DNA of 64,000 nucleotides from assembly GCF_006517815.1 (NCBI RefSeq), contig NZ_CP041198.1, positions 558,001-622,000 on the forward strand, in the 5' to 3' direction. The position numbers were made by a program, and so were the translations under genes. Within the stretch, counting starts at the first letter, position 1, and each line of letters begins with the position of its first letter. Source of the DNA: Pseudarthrobacter sp. NIBRBAC000502770. GTDB taxonomy: Bacteria; Actinomycetota; Actinomycetes; Actinomycetales; Micrococcaceae. Of this stretch, positions 36,928 through 43,075 are shown piece by piece. Under the pieces are notes generated by a model. That model was not told where the DNA came from. It searched no databases and saw only the letters and a program-made list of their open reading frames with translations.

Positions 36928-36970
36928 AGATTGCCCTACCGCTCCGCTTGTAGTCAAGAAGTTAACGCAA
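36928..36970 (-). promoter_or_regulatory. ROK gene promoter with autoregulatory box
   Basis: On the minus strand, TTGACT (36952-36957) and CAATCT (36928-36933) are 18 nt apart, and the -10 ends 7 nt before the ATG. Plus-strand GTCAAGAAGTTAACGCAA (36953-36970) covers the -35, in the same position as the importer box. Confidence 0.65.
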
Positions 36971-37148
36971 GGGTGGGTCGGGGAGCGGTGGAAGAAGTGG
37001 GGAGCGCCGCCGTGCATTCCGTCCCGGCGTCCAGCGCGGCGGGTCCAAACGACCCGCCAGCCACTGCTTGCGGCTGGCTAGGCTGGAAGACGGAAACAAC
37101 CCCTGCCCCTCCACCTCCGCGTGGACAGGCACAACGAAGGTGGTAACG

Positions 37149-38006
37149 ATGCTGCTGTCCGTCCTGCAGGCCAACGCCGTGGTCCTGGACATCGAGGCCA
37201 ATCTCCGGACCGTGGACCAGGCTGCCCGCCAGGCCGCGCAGGCCGGCGCCCACCTGCTGCTCACGCCGGAGCTCTTTCCCGTGGGCTACGCTCCGCTGCG
37301 GCTGCGCCGCGACCTTGATCCGGCGGCGATCCCCGCGGTCCGCGAACGGCTGGCCGGGATCGCCCGCAGTACCGGGGTCGCGCTCGTGTACAGCCTGCCG
37401 GCACCGGCAGGTGGTGAAACGGAGTCCGCCGGTGGCACTGGATGGCACATTTCAGCCACCCTGGTGGATGCCGGAGGCAGGGAAATCCTCACCTACGCCA
37501 AGGTGCACCTCTTCGGCGATGAGGAACGCAGGGCATTCGTCCCGGCCTCGCAACCTCCGGCCGTGGTGGATTTCCACGGCATCCGCACCTCTCTGCTGAT
37601 TTGCTATGACATCGAGTTCCCCGAGGCCGCGCTGGAGGCTGCTGCCCGGGGCGCCGAACTGGTCCTGGTGCCCACCGCGTTGTCTGCGGGCTTCGAGGCG
37701 GTACCGCAGGTGCTCATCCGCGCCCGGGCGCTGGAAAGCCAGCTCCACGTGGCCTATGCAAACCACTGCGGAAGCGAGGACGCCTACATCTTCGGCGGTG
37801 GAAGCGTGGTGGCGGGACCTGACGGTGCGCTTCTTGCCGAGGCGGCGGACGGCCAGGCGCTGTTGTTTGCCGAGGTGGGGGCGGAGGCGGTCCGCGCCGC
37901 GCGGGAGGTGGTGCCGTACCTGCGGGAACGCCGGCCCGGGGTATACCGGGAGTGGGAGGCGGACCGGCCGCAGGAACGGGGCCTGCCCGGGAATGGCCGG
38001 CCCTAG
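37149..38006 (+). CDS. davA: 5-aminopentanamidase DavA (nitrilase superfamily)
   Basis: The product is 285 residues. GAAGG precedes ATG 37149. It is a C-N hydrolase with the catalytic Glu41 (LLLTPELFPVGY), Lys118 (ILTYAKVHLFG) and Cys152 (LLICYDIEFPE). The LICYDIEFPE and RARALESQ-AYAN-CGSED blocks closely resemble Pseudomonas DavA, which cleaves 5-aminopentanamide to 5-aminovalerate plus ammonia. The assignment is strengthened by a lysine 2-monooxygenase gene, which makes that amide, 3.3 kb downstream. It is transcribed toward the convergent PucR gene, 7 nt from its stop. An alternative is a general amidase of the same family. Confidence 0.85.
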   Translation: MLLSVLQANAVVLDIEANLRTVDQAARQAAQAGAHLLLTPELFPVGYAPLRLRRDLDPAAIPAVRERLAGIARSTGVALVYSLPAPAGGETESAGGTGWHISATLVDAGGREILTYAKVHLFGDEERRAFVPASQPPAVVDFHGIRTSLLICYDIEFPEAALEAAARGAELVLVPTALSAGFEAVPQVLIRARALESQLHVAYANHCGSEDAYIFGGGSVVAGPDGALLAEAADGQALLFAEVGAEAVRAAREVVPYLRERRPGVYREWEADRPQERGLPGNGRP

Positions 38007-38013
38007 GCTGCGG

Positions 38014-39618
38014 TCAGTCCGCCCCGGCCACGCCGTCTGCGTATTGCAGCGCGATCCACAGTTCTGCGCGCACCTGTGCCTGGTTAAGGTCCATCTGCAG
38101 CAGTTCGCCCAGGACGCCGATCTGCCGGCGCACACTGTTCCGGTGCAGTCCCAGCAGTTTGGCGGAGGCATCCCAGCTGCCGTTCTCGCTGAGCCAGCCC
38201 CGGAGGACGGCCAGCAGTGGGTGGCGCCGGTCAGGTTCCAGTGCCAGGACCGGCTGGAGGAGGCGTTCGGCCAGCAACGTGCCGGCCTCACGGCCCAGCA
38301 GCCCGGTCACGGACCAGGACACCTCATCGGCCCGGACGCTCCGGCCGCTGCGCTGGACCTGGCTGCGCAGGGAGGTGGCGCGCTGGTACGCGGCAGACAA
38401 TCCGGTGAGCTCGGTCGGTTCGCCGATCACCAGGCGCCACCCCAGCCTCTCCACATCTGCGAGCAGGGCATCGTCCACCCTGAGCCGGGTCACGGCGGCG
38501 AACCCGTAGTCGGTGACCTCCACGAGCTTTGTGTCAAGCATCCGGCGCCACTGCAGCAGCTCCCGGACCGGGCCGTCACCCGCAGGCCACTGGGGCGCCT
38601 CGACATTGATGCCCTGCACGACGCGCATGGGCGCGGACCGGGTGGAGGAAAGGCTCTGTGCCAGCAGGTCCTTGAGGCCGTTGAGGTGCCGGGTGCTGCC
38701 CGCAGCGAGGCTTTCGGGGTGCAGGAGGACGGCGGTGGCCAGCTGGCTCGGCGCCAGCGACCCGCTGGTGCGCTGCCGCACCAGCAGCTCGAGCAGTCCG
38801 ACGGCGGACTGGACCACATTGTTCTGCGCAGGCGTCAACGGAGCGTCGGAGCCGAGAATCAGGGCGCCGAGGTTGGCGTCCTTGGTACTGCGCAGGGGAT
38901 GGCCCACCACCAATGCAGATCCCGGCTGGTCAAAGCCGTCCATCTCCACCCTCGGCCCCCGGCCGGACAGCAACCGATCGAGCATGGGTTCCAGGAGGGA
39001 GAGGTCGACGGCGGTGCTGCCGCCGTCACTGGTGCCCCGGGCCCGGACCCGGCCGTCCGCGCCTACCAGGACCGCCCACACGGGGACGCGCTGGACCAGC
39101 GCGGCCAGGAGTTCATGCTCAGGCCGGGGGGAGAGGACGGCACGCATGAGTTGCCGGTTGGTCTCCGCGAGTTGCCGGAAAACCCGGGCATTGTCGGTTT
39201 CCAGGAGTTGTGAGAACTGGAGGCCGATCGCGGCAAAAGGAAGGGATTCCGGCACCTCGAACAACGTGAGGTTGTGCCGGCGGCAGGCCTCCACCACCAC
39301 GTCGGGAACGGCATCGAAATAGGGCCGGATCCCGAATCCCAGCGCCGCCACCTTGGCCTGGACCAGCCGCCGGACATACGCATCCACCCGTGCCGGCGTG
39401 CCGCCCCCGCCAAGGAAGGGGAGTCCGGCGGTGAGCAGGAACTCACCCTCCGGAAGGTAGGGAGTGGGGTCCTCCAGCTCGCTGGGCTCCACCCAGCGCA
39501 GGAGACGGCCGCCACTGCCGCCGTCGTGAAGGAGTTTCAATAACGGCGGCAGCTGGTCAAGGAACTGCTGCAGCGTGACAAAACTCAGCGGTCCGGACTC
39601 CCCTGGCTCAACCGTCAT
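38014..39618 (-). CDS. PucR-family transcriptional regulator of lysine cluster
   Basis: The product is 534 residues. CGGAGG precedes ATG 39618; the frame stays open to 39726 but without a site. The N-terminal PucR sensor domain runs from about 15 to 140 (LLKLLHDGG, LPFLGGGGTPARVDAYVRRLVQAKVAALGFGI). A central GGDEF-like (non-catalytic) region follows, and the C-terminal HTH_30 domain ends the protein (LLGLHRNSVRRQIGVLGELL). PucR proteins respond to nitrogen compounds. Position between davA and the permease-davB genes makes it the likely regulator of the cluster; ligand lysine or a breakdown product is inferred. It is divergent from the permease gene, with 197 nt between. Confidence 0.88.
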   Translation of the reverse strand: MTVEPGESGPLSFVTLQQFLDQLPPLLKLLHDGGSGGRLLRWVEPSELEDPTPYLPEGEFLLTAGLPFLGGGGTPARVDAYVRRLVQAKVAALGFGIRPYFDAVPDVVVEACRRHNLTLFEVPESLPFAAIGLQFSQLLETDNARVFRQLAETNRQLMRAVLSPRPEHELLAALVQRVPVWAVLVGADGRVRARGTSDGGSTAVDLSLLEPMLDRLLSGRGPRVEMDGFDQPGSALVVGHPLRSTKDANLGALILGSDAPLTPAQNNVVQSAVGLLELLVRQRTSGSLAPSQLATAVLLHPESLAAGSTRHLNGLKDLLAQSLSSTRSAPMRVVQGINVEAPQWPAGDGPVRELLQWRRMLDTKLVEVTDYGFAAVTRLRVDDALLADVERLGWRLVIGEPTELTGLSAAYQRATSLRSQVQRSGRSVRADEVSWSVTGLLGREAGTLLAERLLQPVLALEPDRRHPLLAVLRGWLSENGSWDASAKLLGLHRNSVRRQIGVLGELLQMDLNQAQVRAELWIALQYADGVAGAD

Positions 39619-39815
39619 GGGTGCCTCCGGCGCGGGCCGGATCCCGGCAGCCGCGGCCTCCGGCGGCCGCAGGTGCCGGATTGCGGGATCCGCCGCGCTT
39701 GTGCATAAAGTCTCACGGTGGATCACTATAAGTCATTTTGCACCAGGTTGAGAGTTGGCTCACATGCGAGTGTTGGTGAGGGGAAACCGACAACTACTCT
39801 GAAGGGACGTCAACG

Positions 39816-41342
39816 GTGACTGTGCCTGTGACCACCGAAAAGCCCACTGCGCCAAGCCCGGTACGGCCCGGCCTCCAGGCCCAGCTGCTGCGGCGTAAAC
39901 CGATAGGACAAATGGTCAGCGAAGCCGAAGGCGGCGAAGGCGCCCCAAGGCTGCTCCGCAGCTTTGGCGTCCTGCACCTGACCATGATCAGCGTGGGGGC
40001 CACCCTGGGGACCGGCATCCTGGTGATCCTCGGCGAATCGGTGCCCCTTGCCGGGCCCGCCATCTGGATCTCCTTTGTCATTGCCGGCCTTGCCGCCCTG
40101 CTCTCCGCCGTCTCCTATGCCGAGATGGCGGGCCTGGTCCCGGTGGCGGGCTCCAGCTATTCCTACTCGTACGCCACCCTGGGCGAAGGCATGGCGTGGA
40201 TCTGCGGTTGGTGCCTCGTCCTGGAATACGCGGTGTCTGTGGCCGCGGTGGCGGTGGGCGCCGGCCAGTATGTCAACGAGACGCTGGCGGCGTTCGGGCA
40301 GGTGCTGCCCGACGCAGTAGCCCAGCCGCCCGGCGATGGGGGACTGGTCAACGTTCCGGCGGTGGCCATCGTGGTGCTGGCCATGGTCCTGCTGGTCCGC
40401 GGAGCCCGTGAGAGCGCCCGGATCAACACGGCCATTGTCATCGTCAAAGTGGGCATCCTGCTGTTCTTCTGCGCCGTTGCCTTCACCGCCTTCAATGCCG
40501 GCAACTTCCAGCCGCTCCTGCCCATGGGCGCGGCCGGTGTCTCCGCCGCGGCCTCCAGGGTGTTCTTCTCCTACATCGGCTTCGATGCCGCCTCCACTGC
40601 CGGCGAGGAAGCCCGGGACCCCAAGCGCGACCTTCCCCGCGCCATCCTGCTGTCCATGGTGATCGTCACCGGCATCTACGTCCTGGTGGCGGTTGCTGCC
40701 ATCGGTGCCCGCCCCTGGGGCTGGTTCGACGGCACCGAGGCCGCCCTGGTCCAGATCCTGGAGGAGACCACCCACCAGCCGTGGATCGCCCTGGTCTTCT
40801 CCGTCGGCGCTGTCCTCGCGATCGCCAGCATCGTGCTCACGGTCCTTTACGGGCAAACCCGGATCCTGCTGTCCATGTCGCGGGACGGGCTGGTCCCCAA
40901 GGTCTTCGGCCGCGTCTCCTCCCGGACCGGCACCCCGGCCGCCGGAACGCTCATTGTGGGTACCGCCGTCGCGCTCACCGCAGGCCTGGTGCCGCTTGGA
41001 GCCCTGGCCGACGCCACCAGCATCGGAACCTTGTTCGCGTTCGCACTGGTGAACATCGCCGTCATCCACCTGCGCCGCAACCGCCCGGACCTGAAGCGGA
41101 GCTTCCGGGTGCCGCTGTACCCCATCACTCCCGTGCTGGGCACGCTCATGTGTGCCTACCTGATGGCGAACCTGGGAGCCGATACCTGGGTCGTCTTCGG
41201 GGCCTGGATGCTGGTGGGCATCGCCATCTACTTCGGCTATGGACGCCGGAACTCCAAGGTAGCGGCGCTGAGTGAGCTCGACTACCGTGAACTGACCGCC
41301 AAGGCCCCGAGCCAGGAACCTGTGAAAGCAGAACAACCATGA
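39816..41342 (+). CDS. APC-superfamily amino-acid permease, cationic type
   Basis: The product is 508 residues with about twelve helices; the GTG start has AGGGA upstream. FGVLHLTMISVGATLGTGILVILGESVPLAGPA is the helix 1 region of the CAT/YfnA branch, with the broken-helix GTGI motif. SYAEMAGLVPVAGSSYSYSYATLGEG and FFSYIGFDAASTAGEEARDP are further landmarks of cationic-amino-acid transporters. Its stop overlaps the davB start (ATGA), so uptake and first catabolic step are translationally coupled. Lysine is therefore the likely substrate, by inference. Confidence 0.88.
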   Translation: MTVPVTTEKPTAPSPVRPGLQAQLLRRKPIGQMVSEAEGGEGAPRLLRSFGVLHLTMISVGATLGTGILVILGESVPLAGPAIWISFVIAGLAALLSAVSYAEMAGLVPVAGSSYSYSYATLGEGMAWICGWCLVLEYAVSVAAVAVGAGQYVNETLAAFGQVLPDAVAQPPGDGGLVNVPAVAIVVLAMVLLVRGARESARINTAIVIVKVGILLFFCAVAFTAFNAGNFQPLLPMGAAGVSAAASRVFFSYIGFDAASTAGEEARDPKRDLPRAILLSMVIVTGIYVLVAVAAIGARPWGWFDGTEAALVQILEETTHQPWIALVFSVGAVLAIASIVLTVLYGQTRILLSMSRDGLVPKVFGRVSSRTGTPAAGTLIVGTAVALTAGLVPLGALADATSIGTLFAFALVNIAVIHLRRNRPDLKRSFRVPLYPITPVLGTLMCAYLMANLGADTWVVFGAWMLVGIAIYFGYGRRNSKVAALSELDYRELTAKAPSQEPVKAEQP

Positions 41343-43075
41343 CCATCGCCACCGAACTGCCTGCCTTCGACCCCTCCAGCACCTCCACGCCGCCGGCGGA
41401 CGCGGCCGGACGCGGCGCAGGCGGGCAGGCAGCGCCCATCACCATGCTGAACCCCGATTTCCCGTTCAGCTACGACCACTACCTGGCCCACCCGGACGGC
41501 CTGGGCACCGTCCCGCCGGAGCTGTACGGCGCGGAGGTGGCCGTCATCGGCGCCGGTCTCTCCGGCCTGGTGACCGCCTATGAACTCATGAAACTCGGGC
41601 TCCGGCCGGTGGTCTACGAGGCGGACCAGATCGGCGGGCGGCTCCGAACAGCTGCCTTCCCCGCAGCGTCGGGCGTGGTGGCGGACCTGGGCGGAATGCG
41701 GTTCCCGGTCTCTGGGAAGGCGTTCTACCACTACGTGGACCTGCTCGGGCTGGAAACGCAGGACTTCCCCAACCCCCTCGCCGAGGCAACGTCCAGCACC
41801 GTAATCGAGCTGGCCGGCAAGAAACACTATGCCGAAAAGCCGAGCGACCTGCCGCCGTTCTTCCGCGAAGTGGCCGAAGCCTGGAAGGCAGCAGTCAATG
41901 ACGGCGCCAAGTTCGTGCAGATGCAGGACGCCATCAAGGCGCGGGACATGCCCAGGATCAAGGAACTCTGGAACGAACTGCTCCCGCTCATGGATGAACA
42001 GACCTTCTACGGTTTCATCGCCGCCAGCGATTCCTTCAAGAAGGCAGGGTTCGCCCACCGAGAGGCCTTCGGCCAGGTGGGGTTCGGCACCGGCGGCTGG
42101 GACACCGACTTCCCCAACTCCATCCTGGAAATCCTCCGCGTGGTCTACACCGACGCGGACGACCAGCACCGGCTGATCCGCGGCGGAGCGCAACGCCTGC
42201 CCGAGGCACTCTGGCAGCACGCGCCGTCGGACCTGGTGCACTGGCCTGCGGGCACCTCCCTGGCCTCGCTGCACTCGGGCTCGCCGCGCGGCGCCGTGGG
42301 GAAGATCAGCAGGGACCCTGACGGCAACCTGCGGGTCCGGGAGCGCTGGGGCCGCGAGGCCAGCTACCCGGCCGTGGTGACCACCTGCCAGTCGTGGCTG
42401 CTGTCCACCCGGATCCACACGGAGGAGGCCCTGTTCCCGGCCGAGCTCTGGACCGCCATGGAGAAATCGCACTACATGCAGTCCTCGAAGACGTTCGTGA
42501 TGGTGGACCGGCCGTTCTGGAAGGACGTCGACCCGGAAACGGGCAACGAGGTCCTGTCCATGACCCTGACGGACAGGCTGAACCGGGCCACCTACCTGCT
42601 GGACAACGGCCCAGACCAGCCCGCCGTCATCCTGCTCTCCTACACCTGGAACGACGACGCGCTGAAGTGGCTGGCCCTGGACGCCGACGAACGCGTGGAA
42701 CTGATGCTGCACTCGCTTGAACAGATCTATCCCGGCGTGGACATCGCCGGGCACATCGTGGGCCAGCCCATCACCGTGTCCTGGGAGGCGGACCCCAACT
42801 TCATGGGCGCCTTCAAGGCCAACCTCCCCGGCCACTACCGCTACCAGCAGCGGGTGTTCACCCACTTCAAGCAGGACAAGCTGCCGGAGTCCCAGCGCGG
42901 CATCTTCCTGGCCGGCGACGACGTCTCCTTCACCGCCGGCTGGGCGGAAGGCGCGGTCACCACGGGGCTGAACGCGGTGTGGGGCGTGGTGAAGCACCTG
43001 GGCGGGTCCTCGGCGCCCGGAAATCCCGGCCCGGGCGACCTGCTGGACGAGTTCGGGCCGATCAGCCTGGACTGA
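41339..43075 (+). CDS. davB: L-lysine 2-monooxygenase DavB (flavoprotein)
   Basis: The product is 578 residues. It decarboxylates and oxidises L-lysine to 5-aminopentanamide with O2. The FAD dinucleotide motif is VIGAGLSGLVTAYELMKLG, followed by YEADQIGGRLRT and LGGMRFPVSGKAFYHYV. KKHYAEKPSDLP, VGFGTGGWDTDFPNS, QSSKTFVMVDRPFWKD, DPETGNEVLSMTLTDRL, ITVSWEADPNFMGAFK and the C-terminal NPGPGDLLDEFGPI closely follow the Pseudomonas putida enzyme from memory. The match is much closer than to tryptophan 2-monooxygenases, which share the fold. Residues 1-35 are a non-conserved extension. The partner amidase gene is 3.3 kb away. The later steps (aminotransferase, semialdehyde dehydrogenase) are not in the window. 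Confidence 0.9.
   Translation: MTIATELPAFDPSSTSTPPADAAGRGAGGQAAPITMLNPDFPFSYDHYLAHPDGLGTVPPELYGAEVAVIGAGLSGLVTAYELMKLGLRPVVYEADQIGGRLRTAAFPAASGVVADLGGMRFPVSGKAFYHYVDLLGLETQDFPNPLAEATSSTVIELAGKKHYAEKPSDLPPFFREVAEAWKAAVNDGAKFVQMQDAIKARDMPRIKELWNELLPLMDEQTFYGFIAASDSFKKAGFAHREAFGQVGFGTGGWDTDFPNSILEILRVVYTDADDQHRLIRGGAQRLPEALWQHAPSDLVHWPAGTSLASLHSGSPRGAVGKISRDPDGNLRVRERWGREASYPAVVTTCQSWLLSTRIHTEEALFPAELWTAMEKSHYMQSSKTFVMVDRPFWKDVDPETGNEVLSMTLTDRLNRATYLLDNGPDQPAVILLSYTWNDDALKWLALDADERVELMLHSLEQIYPGVDIAGHIVGQPITVSWEADPNFMGAFKANLPGHYRYQQRVFTHFKQDKLPESQRGIFLAGDDVSFTAGWAEGAVTTGLNAVWGVVKHLGGSSAPGNPGPGDLLDEFGPISLD

Follow-up and report, generated by a model that had tools for sequence, protein, structure and literature searches.

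Which amino acid is degraded by an actinobacterial locus whose two enzymes resemble DavB and DavA of the lysine route? The question is raised by a 64,000-nucleotide stretch of the genome of Pseudarthrobacter sp. NIBRBAC000502770 (NZ_CP041198.1, positions 558,001 to 622,000; this whole stretch is called the window), which was Pseudarthrobacter/Arthrobacter-like by its nearest named proteins. The window carries genes for a nitrilase-fold amidase, a PucR-family regulator, an amino-acid permease and a flavin adenine dinucleotide (FAD) amino-acid 2-monooxygenase. All four open reading frames (ORFs) were confirmed at the positions and on the strands given by the original prediction, which had read them as a lysine-to-5-aminovalerate cluster. 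The observation itself was confirmed and its interpretation was partly supported: the locus is probably an arginine-oxygenase catabolic module, with arginine rather than lysine as its substrate. We infer the substrate, reaction and regulation of the module from its gene families, gene order, gene overlap and pocket residues, and from the neighbors of its relatives.

The Monooxygenase and Its Substrate Pocket

The monooxygenase gene (41339..43075, + strand; Amino_oxidase PF01593, 181 bits) belonged to the L-amino acid oxidase/monooxygenase (L-AAO/MOG, DavB) family and encodes a proposed L-arginine 2-monooxygenase. The closest solved relative was the enzyme of Pseudomonas sp. AIU 813 (3WE0; phmmer 1.1e-242, 810 bits), to which it aligned without gaps over 547 residues (32–578) at 60.9% identity; the DavB-type assignment of the original prediction was thus borne out. 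Tryptophan 2-monooxygenase and the phenylalanine enzyme scored only 199 and 38 bits, and the window enzyme had Asp, not a hydrophobic residue, at the D238 position. A tryptophan or phenylalanine monooxygenase was ruled out on these grounds.

Residues are numbered here as in PMC5832979 (chain minus 20). This offset is a deduction: with it, R102, W235, D238, C254, Q258, Y416, W418, F473, A515, and W516 fell on the right letters. The window enzyme kept R102, W235, D238, Y416, W418, F473, and W516 of 3WE0, and its pocket differed in having A254 for C, H258 for Q, A475 for G, A514 for P, and G515 for A. The codon of Asp257 (= D238) is located at 42107..42109 (+), and those of Ala273 (= C254), His277 (= Q258), and Gly534 (= A515) at 42155..42157, 42167..42169, and 42938..42940, respectively (all +). 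In 3WE0, D238 holds the side-chain charge of the substrate and its D238N variant is inactive, Q258 contacts the alpha groups via water, and A515 lines the lysine chain; Gly at this pocket-widening position has been cited as partly responsible for the greater pocket width of the tryptophan and phenylalanine enzymes (PMC5832979). The retention of D238 suggested that the substrate has a basic side chain.

Pocket Classes and Phylogeny

Relatives were taken from 80 named Micrococcaceae loci, the best 80 of 224 relatives of the Arthrobacter liuii protein P0020. The motif D238 plus A254/H258/G515 was present in 79 of 79 distinct rows, the 80th row being identical to another and hence not listed apart. 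Two further lists of matches, the second obtained with a Streptomyces-like query, had the window motif in 119/120 and 119/120 of the proteins listed; the exceptions were one incomplete row and one protein with H102. A second class, grouping with 3WE0, had A515, with Q258 in 10/10 loci and C, F, Y, or L at position 254. In the 66 G515 loci, position 258 was H in 59, Q in six, and T in one; these 66 take in two far relatives (L054 and L055) and two N238 loci (L041 and L241).

The 3WE0 clade comprised 12 rows (10 A515 loci, 3WE0, and L224) with a Shimodaira–Hasegawa-like approximate likelihood ratio test (SH-aLRT) value of 100. The window enzyme fell outside it, in a clade of 16 rows (SH-aLRT 99). 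Judging from 3WE0 and the gene neighbors, the 3WE0 clade would be lysine-specific.

Some rows stood apart. L224 (6786-12225), the sole G515 row in the 3WE0 clade, had a ureohydrolase 1.4 kb away and an Amidase-signature (PF01425) enzyme in place of the CN_hydrolase. The far relatives L054 and L055 (35 and 40% identity) showed divergent pocket letters (F238/E254; L254/Q475). L050, L053, L056, and L220, used as the outgroup, formed a separate group on the tree with Phe or Cys replacing W516.

Ureohydrolase Genes Beside the Monooxygenase

The neighbors of the monooxygenase were read in 76 loci, 53 picked for spread and 23 more; two others were left out, L230 for lying beyond the gene and L256 for coinciding with the named locus L102, and contig ends cut some flanks (to 0.6 kb on one side in L223). 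A neighbor was counted as a ureohydrolase at an identity of at least 40% with more than half covered. A guanidinobutyrase-like ureohydrolase lay within 10 kb of the monooxygenase in 21 of 66 G515 loci versus 0 of 10 A515 loci, and the distance was at most 120 bp in 14 of these 21. The linked loci span eight families (f1, f3, f11, f26, f36, f51, f55, and f80), and 15 of them come from the first 53 loci. The A515 locus L245 had a ureohydrolase at 10.9 kb, outside the limit, and a partial one in L045, where the sequence is cut off, was left uncounted. With two arginase-family genes in 4.48 Mb, a 20-kb stretch would contain one by chance in ~1% of cases. The lysine route does not need a ureohydrolase, and loci of the H258/G515 class carry one recurrently, though not mostly. 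This indicated that the lysine-to-5-aminovalerate pathway of the original prediction is probably wrong.

The gene order in L233 (genome G1198, from the window's family) was gamma-aminobutyrate (GABA) aminotransferase (GABA-AT), amidase, PucR, permease, monooxygenase, and ureohydrolase, and its monooxygenase was 78% identical to the window enzyme with the same pocket motif. By its gene content, L233 is the window's module plus two further enzymes that arginine would need. It grouped with L040 and L208 (SH-aLRT 96) inside the window's clade, and all three have a ureohydrolase; in L040 and L208, the ureohydrolase and a thiamine pyrophosphate (TPP) enzyme formed a pair within ~5.3 kb of the monooxygenase.

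The monooxygenase was present in 55 of 178 genomes of the window's family, four of which had two copies. Three of the four possessed one G515 and one A515 copy, with a ureohydrolase near the G515 copy in all three and within 10 kb of the A515 copy in none; the A515-type copies had their own amidase. That the two classes are kept side by side suggested two substrates. The fourth genome, G1218, contained a D238/G515 copy and an N238/G515 copy. The single monooxygenase-positive family genome without a ureohydrolase (G352) was A515-type.

Proposed Pathway and Matching Genes in the Genome

In the proposed pathway, the permease would import the basic amino acid, the FAD enzyme would convert L-arginine to 4-guanidinobutyramide by oxidative decarboxylation, and the amidase would hydrolyze the amide to 4-guanidinobutyrate. 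From this acid, a ureohydrolase encoded at another genomic position (G000:C2:339750-340811), a candidate guanidinobutyrase by homology, would release urea and leave GABA, and GABA-AT with a succinate-semialdehyde dehydrogenase (SSADH)-like enzyme would lead GABA into succinate. The permease and monooxygenase genes, as an operon, may be controlled by PucR, which perhaps acts on the amidase gene too.

Among solved structures, this ureohydrolase was closest to the guanidinobutyrase GbuA (3NIO, 280 bits), followed by 3-guanidinopropionase (3NIP, 271 bits), proclavaminate amidinohydrolase (255 bits), and agmatinase (234 bits). It and hutG were the only arginase-family genes in the genome. A GABA-AT above the NCBIfam cut-offs was found at G000:C2 ~2.70 Mb. 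An aldehyde-dehydrogenase-like gene adjoins it and a second lies ~7 kb off; in BLAST clustering, both joined the SSADH-like genes found in L040. The original prediction had noted that davT and davD are missing from the locus, which held; the GABA-AT and aldehyde-dehydrogenase-like genes lie away from it. Neither arginine deiminase arcA nor AstA had a match in the genome, where arginine decarboxylase and transaminase were not searched.

The ureohydrolase was followed by a TPP decarboxylase-like gene (G000:C2:339750-342506; L058:9750-12506), with a PuuR-like regulator nearby. The second-best family of the TPP enzyme was 5-guanidino-2-oxopentanoate decarboxylase (320 bits, below the cut-off of 500), and the enzyme may salvage 2-ketoarginine from an oxidase side reaction.

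Alternative Substrates and Reactions

Several observations weigh against arginine. There was no ureohydrolase within 10 kb in 45 of 66 G515 loci, including the Streptomyces-like main copies read, and none in the fetched flanks of the 80 named Micrococcaceae loci (0/80; E 1e-20). The window locus itself is linked to an amidase and not to a ureohydrolase. The sample was not random, since some of the 23 later loci were picked for two copies or an adjoining ureohydrolase. The A515 loci are essentially one clade, with the G515 row L224 among them, and an independent-pairs test of pocket class against ureohydrolase had no power (median p 1). A ureohydrolase ortholog occurred in 160 of the 178 family genomes, with or without the monooxygenase; genome-wide co-occurrence therefore says little and was rejected as proof, and only adjacency counts. 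NCBIfam labeled the window genome's own ureohydrolase an agmatinase, above cut-off. The substrates of 3WE0 are Arg, Orn, and Lys, with the highest kcat/Km for ornithine (PMC5832979). In addition, the G515 loci L040, L208, and L233 have an acyl-CoA dehydrogenase gene near that of the monooxygenase (at 3.5, 5.7, and 2.1 kb, respectively), and the window's genome encodes a glutaryl-CoA-dehydrogenase-like one that is 68% identical to its counterpart in L047, a lysine-type locus, which would allow lysine degradation to be completed. These dehydrogenase neighbors and the 0/80 result slightly reduced our confidence in arginine.

Best placed among the alternatives, although unlikely, is a lysine 2-monooxygenase route (davBA) to 5-aminovalerate. 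It would account for 3WE0, a lysine enzyme, being the closest solved relative, for the retention of D238 and the other named active-site residues, and for the nearby nitrilase-fold amidase; the GABA-AT, SSADH-like, and glutaryl-CoA-dehydrogenase-like genes of the genome and the dehydrogenases near the monooxygenase in L040, L208, and L233 would also serve it. However, the window enzyme does not share the pocket class of 3WE0, the family also has A515-type copies paired with a separate amidase, in three genomes alongside a window-type copy, and a ureohydrolase within 10 kb was seen in the G515 class only. Among the A515 loci, L046 had GABA-AT and aldehyde dehydrogenase genes beside the monooxygenase and amidase, and L047 had a class-III aminotransferase and an acyl-CoA dehydrogenase there. 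The acyl-CoA dehydrogenases of L040, L208, and L233 were 59, 59, and 37% identical to that of L047, and such a gene is not a clean marker of the lysine class.

It is also improbable that the enzyme accepts basic amino acids in general (Arg, Orn, and Lys), with arginine as just one physiological substrate. The substrate range of 3WE0 and the CAT-like permease would fit a generalist, but the strictly kept pocket differences and the recurrent ureohydrolase linkage suggest specialization. A role mainly as an arginine oxidase, whose 2-ketoarginine the TPP decarboxylase beside the ureohydrolase would turn into 4-guanidinobutyraldehyde, is very improbable: position 254 is altered, C254I abolishes the monooxygenase activity of 3WE0 and raises its oxidase activity (PMC5832979), and the ureohydrolase-TPP enzyme pair recurs near the monooxygenase in L040 and L208, but A254 differs from I254, and the amidase found within 5 kb in 47 of 66 G515 loci would be superfluous for an oxidase.

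Gene Order and Partner Genes

The amidase of the arginine module, a proposed 4-guanidinobutyramide hydrolase analogous to DavA, is encoded at 37149..38006 (+; CN_hydrolase PF00795, 128 bits). Its best solved relative was the 5JQN/3HKX amidase (225 bits), with which the positions of Glu (TPELF), Lys (KVHLF), and Cys (LICYDIEFPE) matched up; we take these three residues to be the catalytic triad. With the amidase of L047, a lysine-type locus, it shared 39% identity. The DavA call of the original prediction stands as to a nitrilase-fold amidase partner, and its role in a lysine route is probably wrong. The pucR gene (38014..39726, −; PucR PF07905 plus HTH_30 PF13556), divergent from the permease and convergent with the amidase, lies between them as had been predicted. 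The GTG at 39726 is the start of the ORF as called, and the real start may be the in-frame ATG near 39618. The CAT-type (APC) permease (39816..41342, +) matched the AA_permease_2/AA_permease and AA_permease_C profiles. Its best solved relative was 5OQT (416 bits), presumably a GkApcT-type transporter, followed by the cationic transporters CAT4/CAT1; the NCBIfam scores for BcaP (495 bits) and 2A0303 cationic (303 bits) were both below cut-off. The permease stop overlaps the monooxygenase start in an ATGA at 41339..41342 (+), in agreement with the predicted coupling of the two genes.

In a tblastn survey of the named Micrococcaceae loci, all 80 had the permease and monooxygenase, 79 had PucR, and 77 had the amidase; no amidase match was obtained in L106, L115, and L122, which had <6.6 kb of upstream sequence each. 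Flanking genes were kept as well: ROK in 74, gamma-carbonic-anhydrase-like (gCA) in 79, purU in 76, and glyA in 76. The kept gene order indicated that the arrangement is far beyond chance, and the counts that the module is stably maintained in this group. The pucR-permease interval held extra DNA in 30 of the 79 named loci with both genes. By eye, the four insert ORFs read in this interval, those of L078 (7135-8379), L105, L118, and L132, resembled alanine racemase. An ATP-binding cassette (ABC)-transporter-like gene group, also seen by eye, lay between the amidase and pucR in L118, L121, and L147, which puts the amidase several kb off.

Candidate Regulatory Words

Two candidate operators, both post hoc, were found in the window. 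The word GGTGCAAA lies upstream of the permease (39737..39744, −) as the sole exact copy in the window, and GGTCCAAA, with one mismatch to it, lies upstream of the amidase (37042..37049, +). Counts were made in 50 permease upstreams without extra DNA, 31 with it, and 75 amidase upstreams, the window being counted once in each set. The exact word occurred in 14/50 and 16/31 permease upstreams (29/80 counting the window once) and in 19/75 amidase upstreams, versus 0.4% of shuffled amidase upstreams; before the control genes it occurred in 0/76 (glyA), 0/78 (gCA), and 1/76 (purU). With at most one mismatch, the counts were 45/50, 26/31, and 56/75, and those of the controls were 14.6% (shuffled), 8 of 76 (glyA), 5 of 78 (gCA), and 10 of 76 (purU). 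GTCTCA-type words stood before the permease in 48/50 loci without extra DNA and 24/31 with it, and before the amidase in 6/75. The GGTGCAAA word was not at that place in the Paenarthrobacter loci L121, L132, and L140, and no exact copy was found in 20 kb of sequence surrounding the genome's own ureohydrolase gene or in 20 kb surrounding its GABA-AT gene. Because the GGTGCAAA word was picked by eye before counting, it is a lead for one regulon and no more, and the single regulon of the original prediction gained weak, post hoc support.

A Third Class and Its Implications

L041 (9124-15826) and L241 (8972-14584) make up a third class that occurs in nature, in which Asn replaces D238, position 475 is Asp, and the motif is RWNAQYWFDGGW. 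In both loci, an amidase is accompanied by a regulator with HTH_30 (PucR C-terminal) and by an AA_permease similar to permeases for neutral amino acids. L041 additionally had an enzyme of the hydantoinase/carbamoylase family (TIGR01879, above cut-off); none was found among the L241 ORFs scanned. Our guess is that this class is a citrulline 2-monooxygenase.

Tentatively, the family might be one of basic/ureido amino-acid 2-monooxygenases whose substrate could be predicted from two pocket positions together with the neighboring hydrolase: D238/A515 for lysine, D238/G515 plus ureohydrolase for arginine, and N238/D475/G515, ending in an N-carbamoyl hydrolase, for citrulline. The window would then belong to the arginine class and would represent the hitherto unassigned genes of the arginine-oxygenase pathway in soil actinobacteria. 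According to a published rule, a CN_hydrolase neighbor tells lysine from tryptophan monooxygenases (PMC12462448); this rule would call arginine loci lysine loci. Should the arginine assignment be correct, the Micrococcaceae and Streptomyces records examined would contain a common enzyme class whose function differs from its current labels ('tryptophan 2-monooxygenase', 'lysine 2-monooxygenase', and 'flavin monoamine oxidase'). The arginine route would gain testable genes and residues, and candidate enzymes for guanidinobutyrate and GABA production would be available.

Comparison with Known Systems

Arthrobacter globiformis NBRC 12137, which we take to be IFO 12137, the strain with a reported arginine oxygenase, had one full-length relative, 89% identical to the window enzyme. 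Arginine oxygenase has reportedly also been measured in Streptomyces griseus and Brevibacterium helvolum. To our knowledge, the arginine monooxygenase route is known only from biochemistry. Its genes seem little described: no publication on catabolic arginine-monooxygenase genes in Arthrobacter was recognized at the title/abstract level, in a coverage that left out most subscription journals. P0254, a protein of the Streptomyces violaceusniger group, had the same pocket motif as the window enzyme; like the A. globiformis relative, it speaks for arginine. That group presumably contains an azalomycin producer, and the comparison is made by species group, not with the sequence of the published gene.

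A guanidinobutyrase has been reported from Arthrobacter (PMC11271267); the Zn-guanidinobutyrase of Arthrobacter sp. KUJ 8602 is likened to the own ureohydrolase by the report of the enzyme, not by sequence. Tryptophan 2-monooxygenase (4IV9) is of the same family and has Gly at the A515 position, but Val at the D238 position, where the window enzyme has Asp (PMC5832979). L-AAO/MOG of Pseudomonas sp. AIU 813, or DavB (3WE0, EC 1.13.12.2), resembles the window enzyme in full-length homology and in the retained active-site residues, and the davBA system has a reported nitrilase-fold amidase partner, as in the window. Unlike DavB/3WE0, the window has PucR and a CAT-type permease, and part of the related loci have ureohydrolase neighbors. 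Azalomycin needs an arginine monooxygenase (PMC5082578), and this enzyme together with a 4-guanidinobutyramide hydrolase has been described for azalomycin-type polyketides and arginoketides (PMC5082578, PMC10322714). These are the same two steps as those proposed for the window; in the polyketide systems, however, a CoA ligase activates the acid, which is then used to build the polyketide, whereas in the window it would go to GABA.

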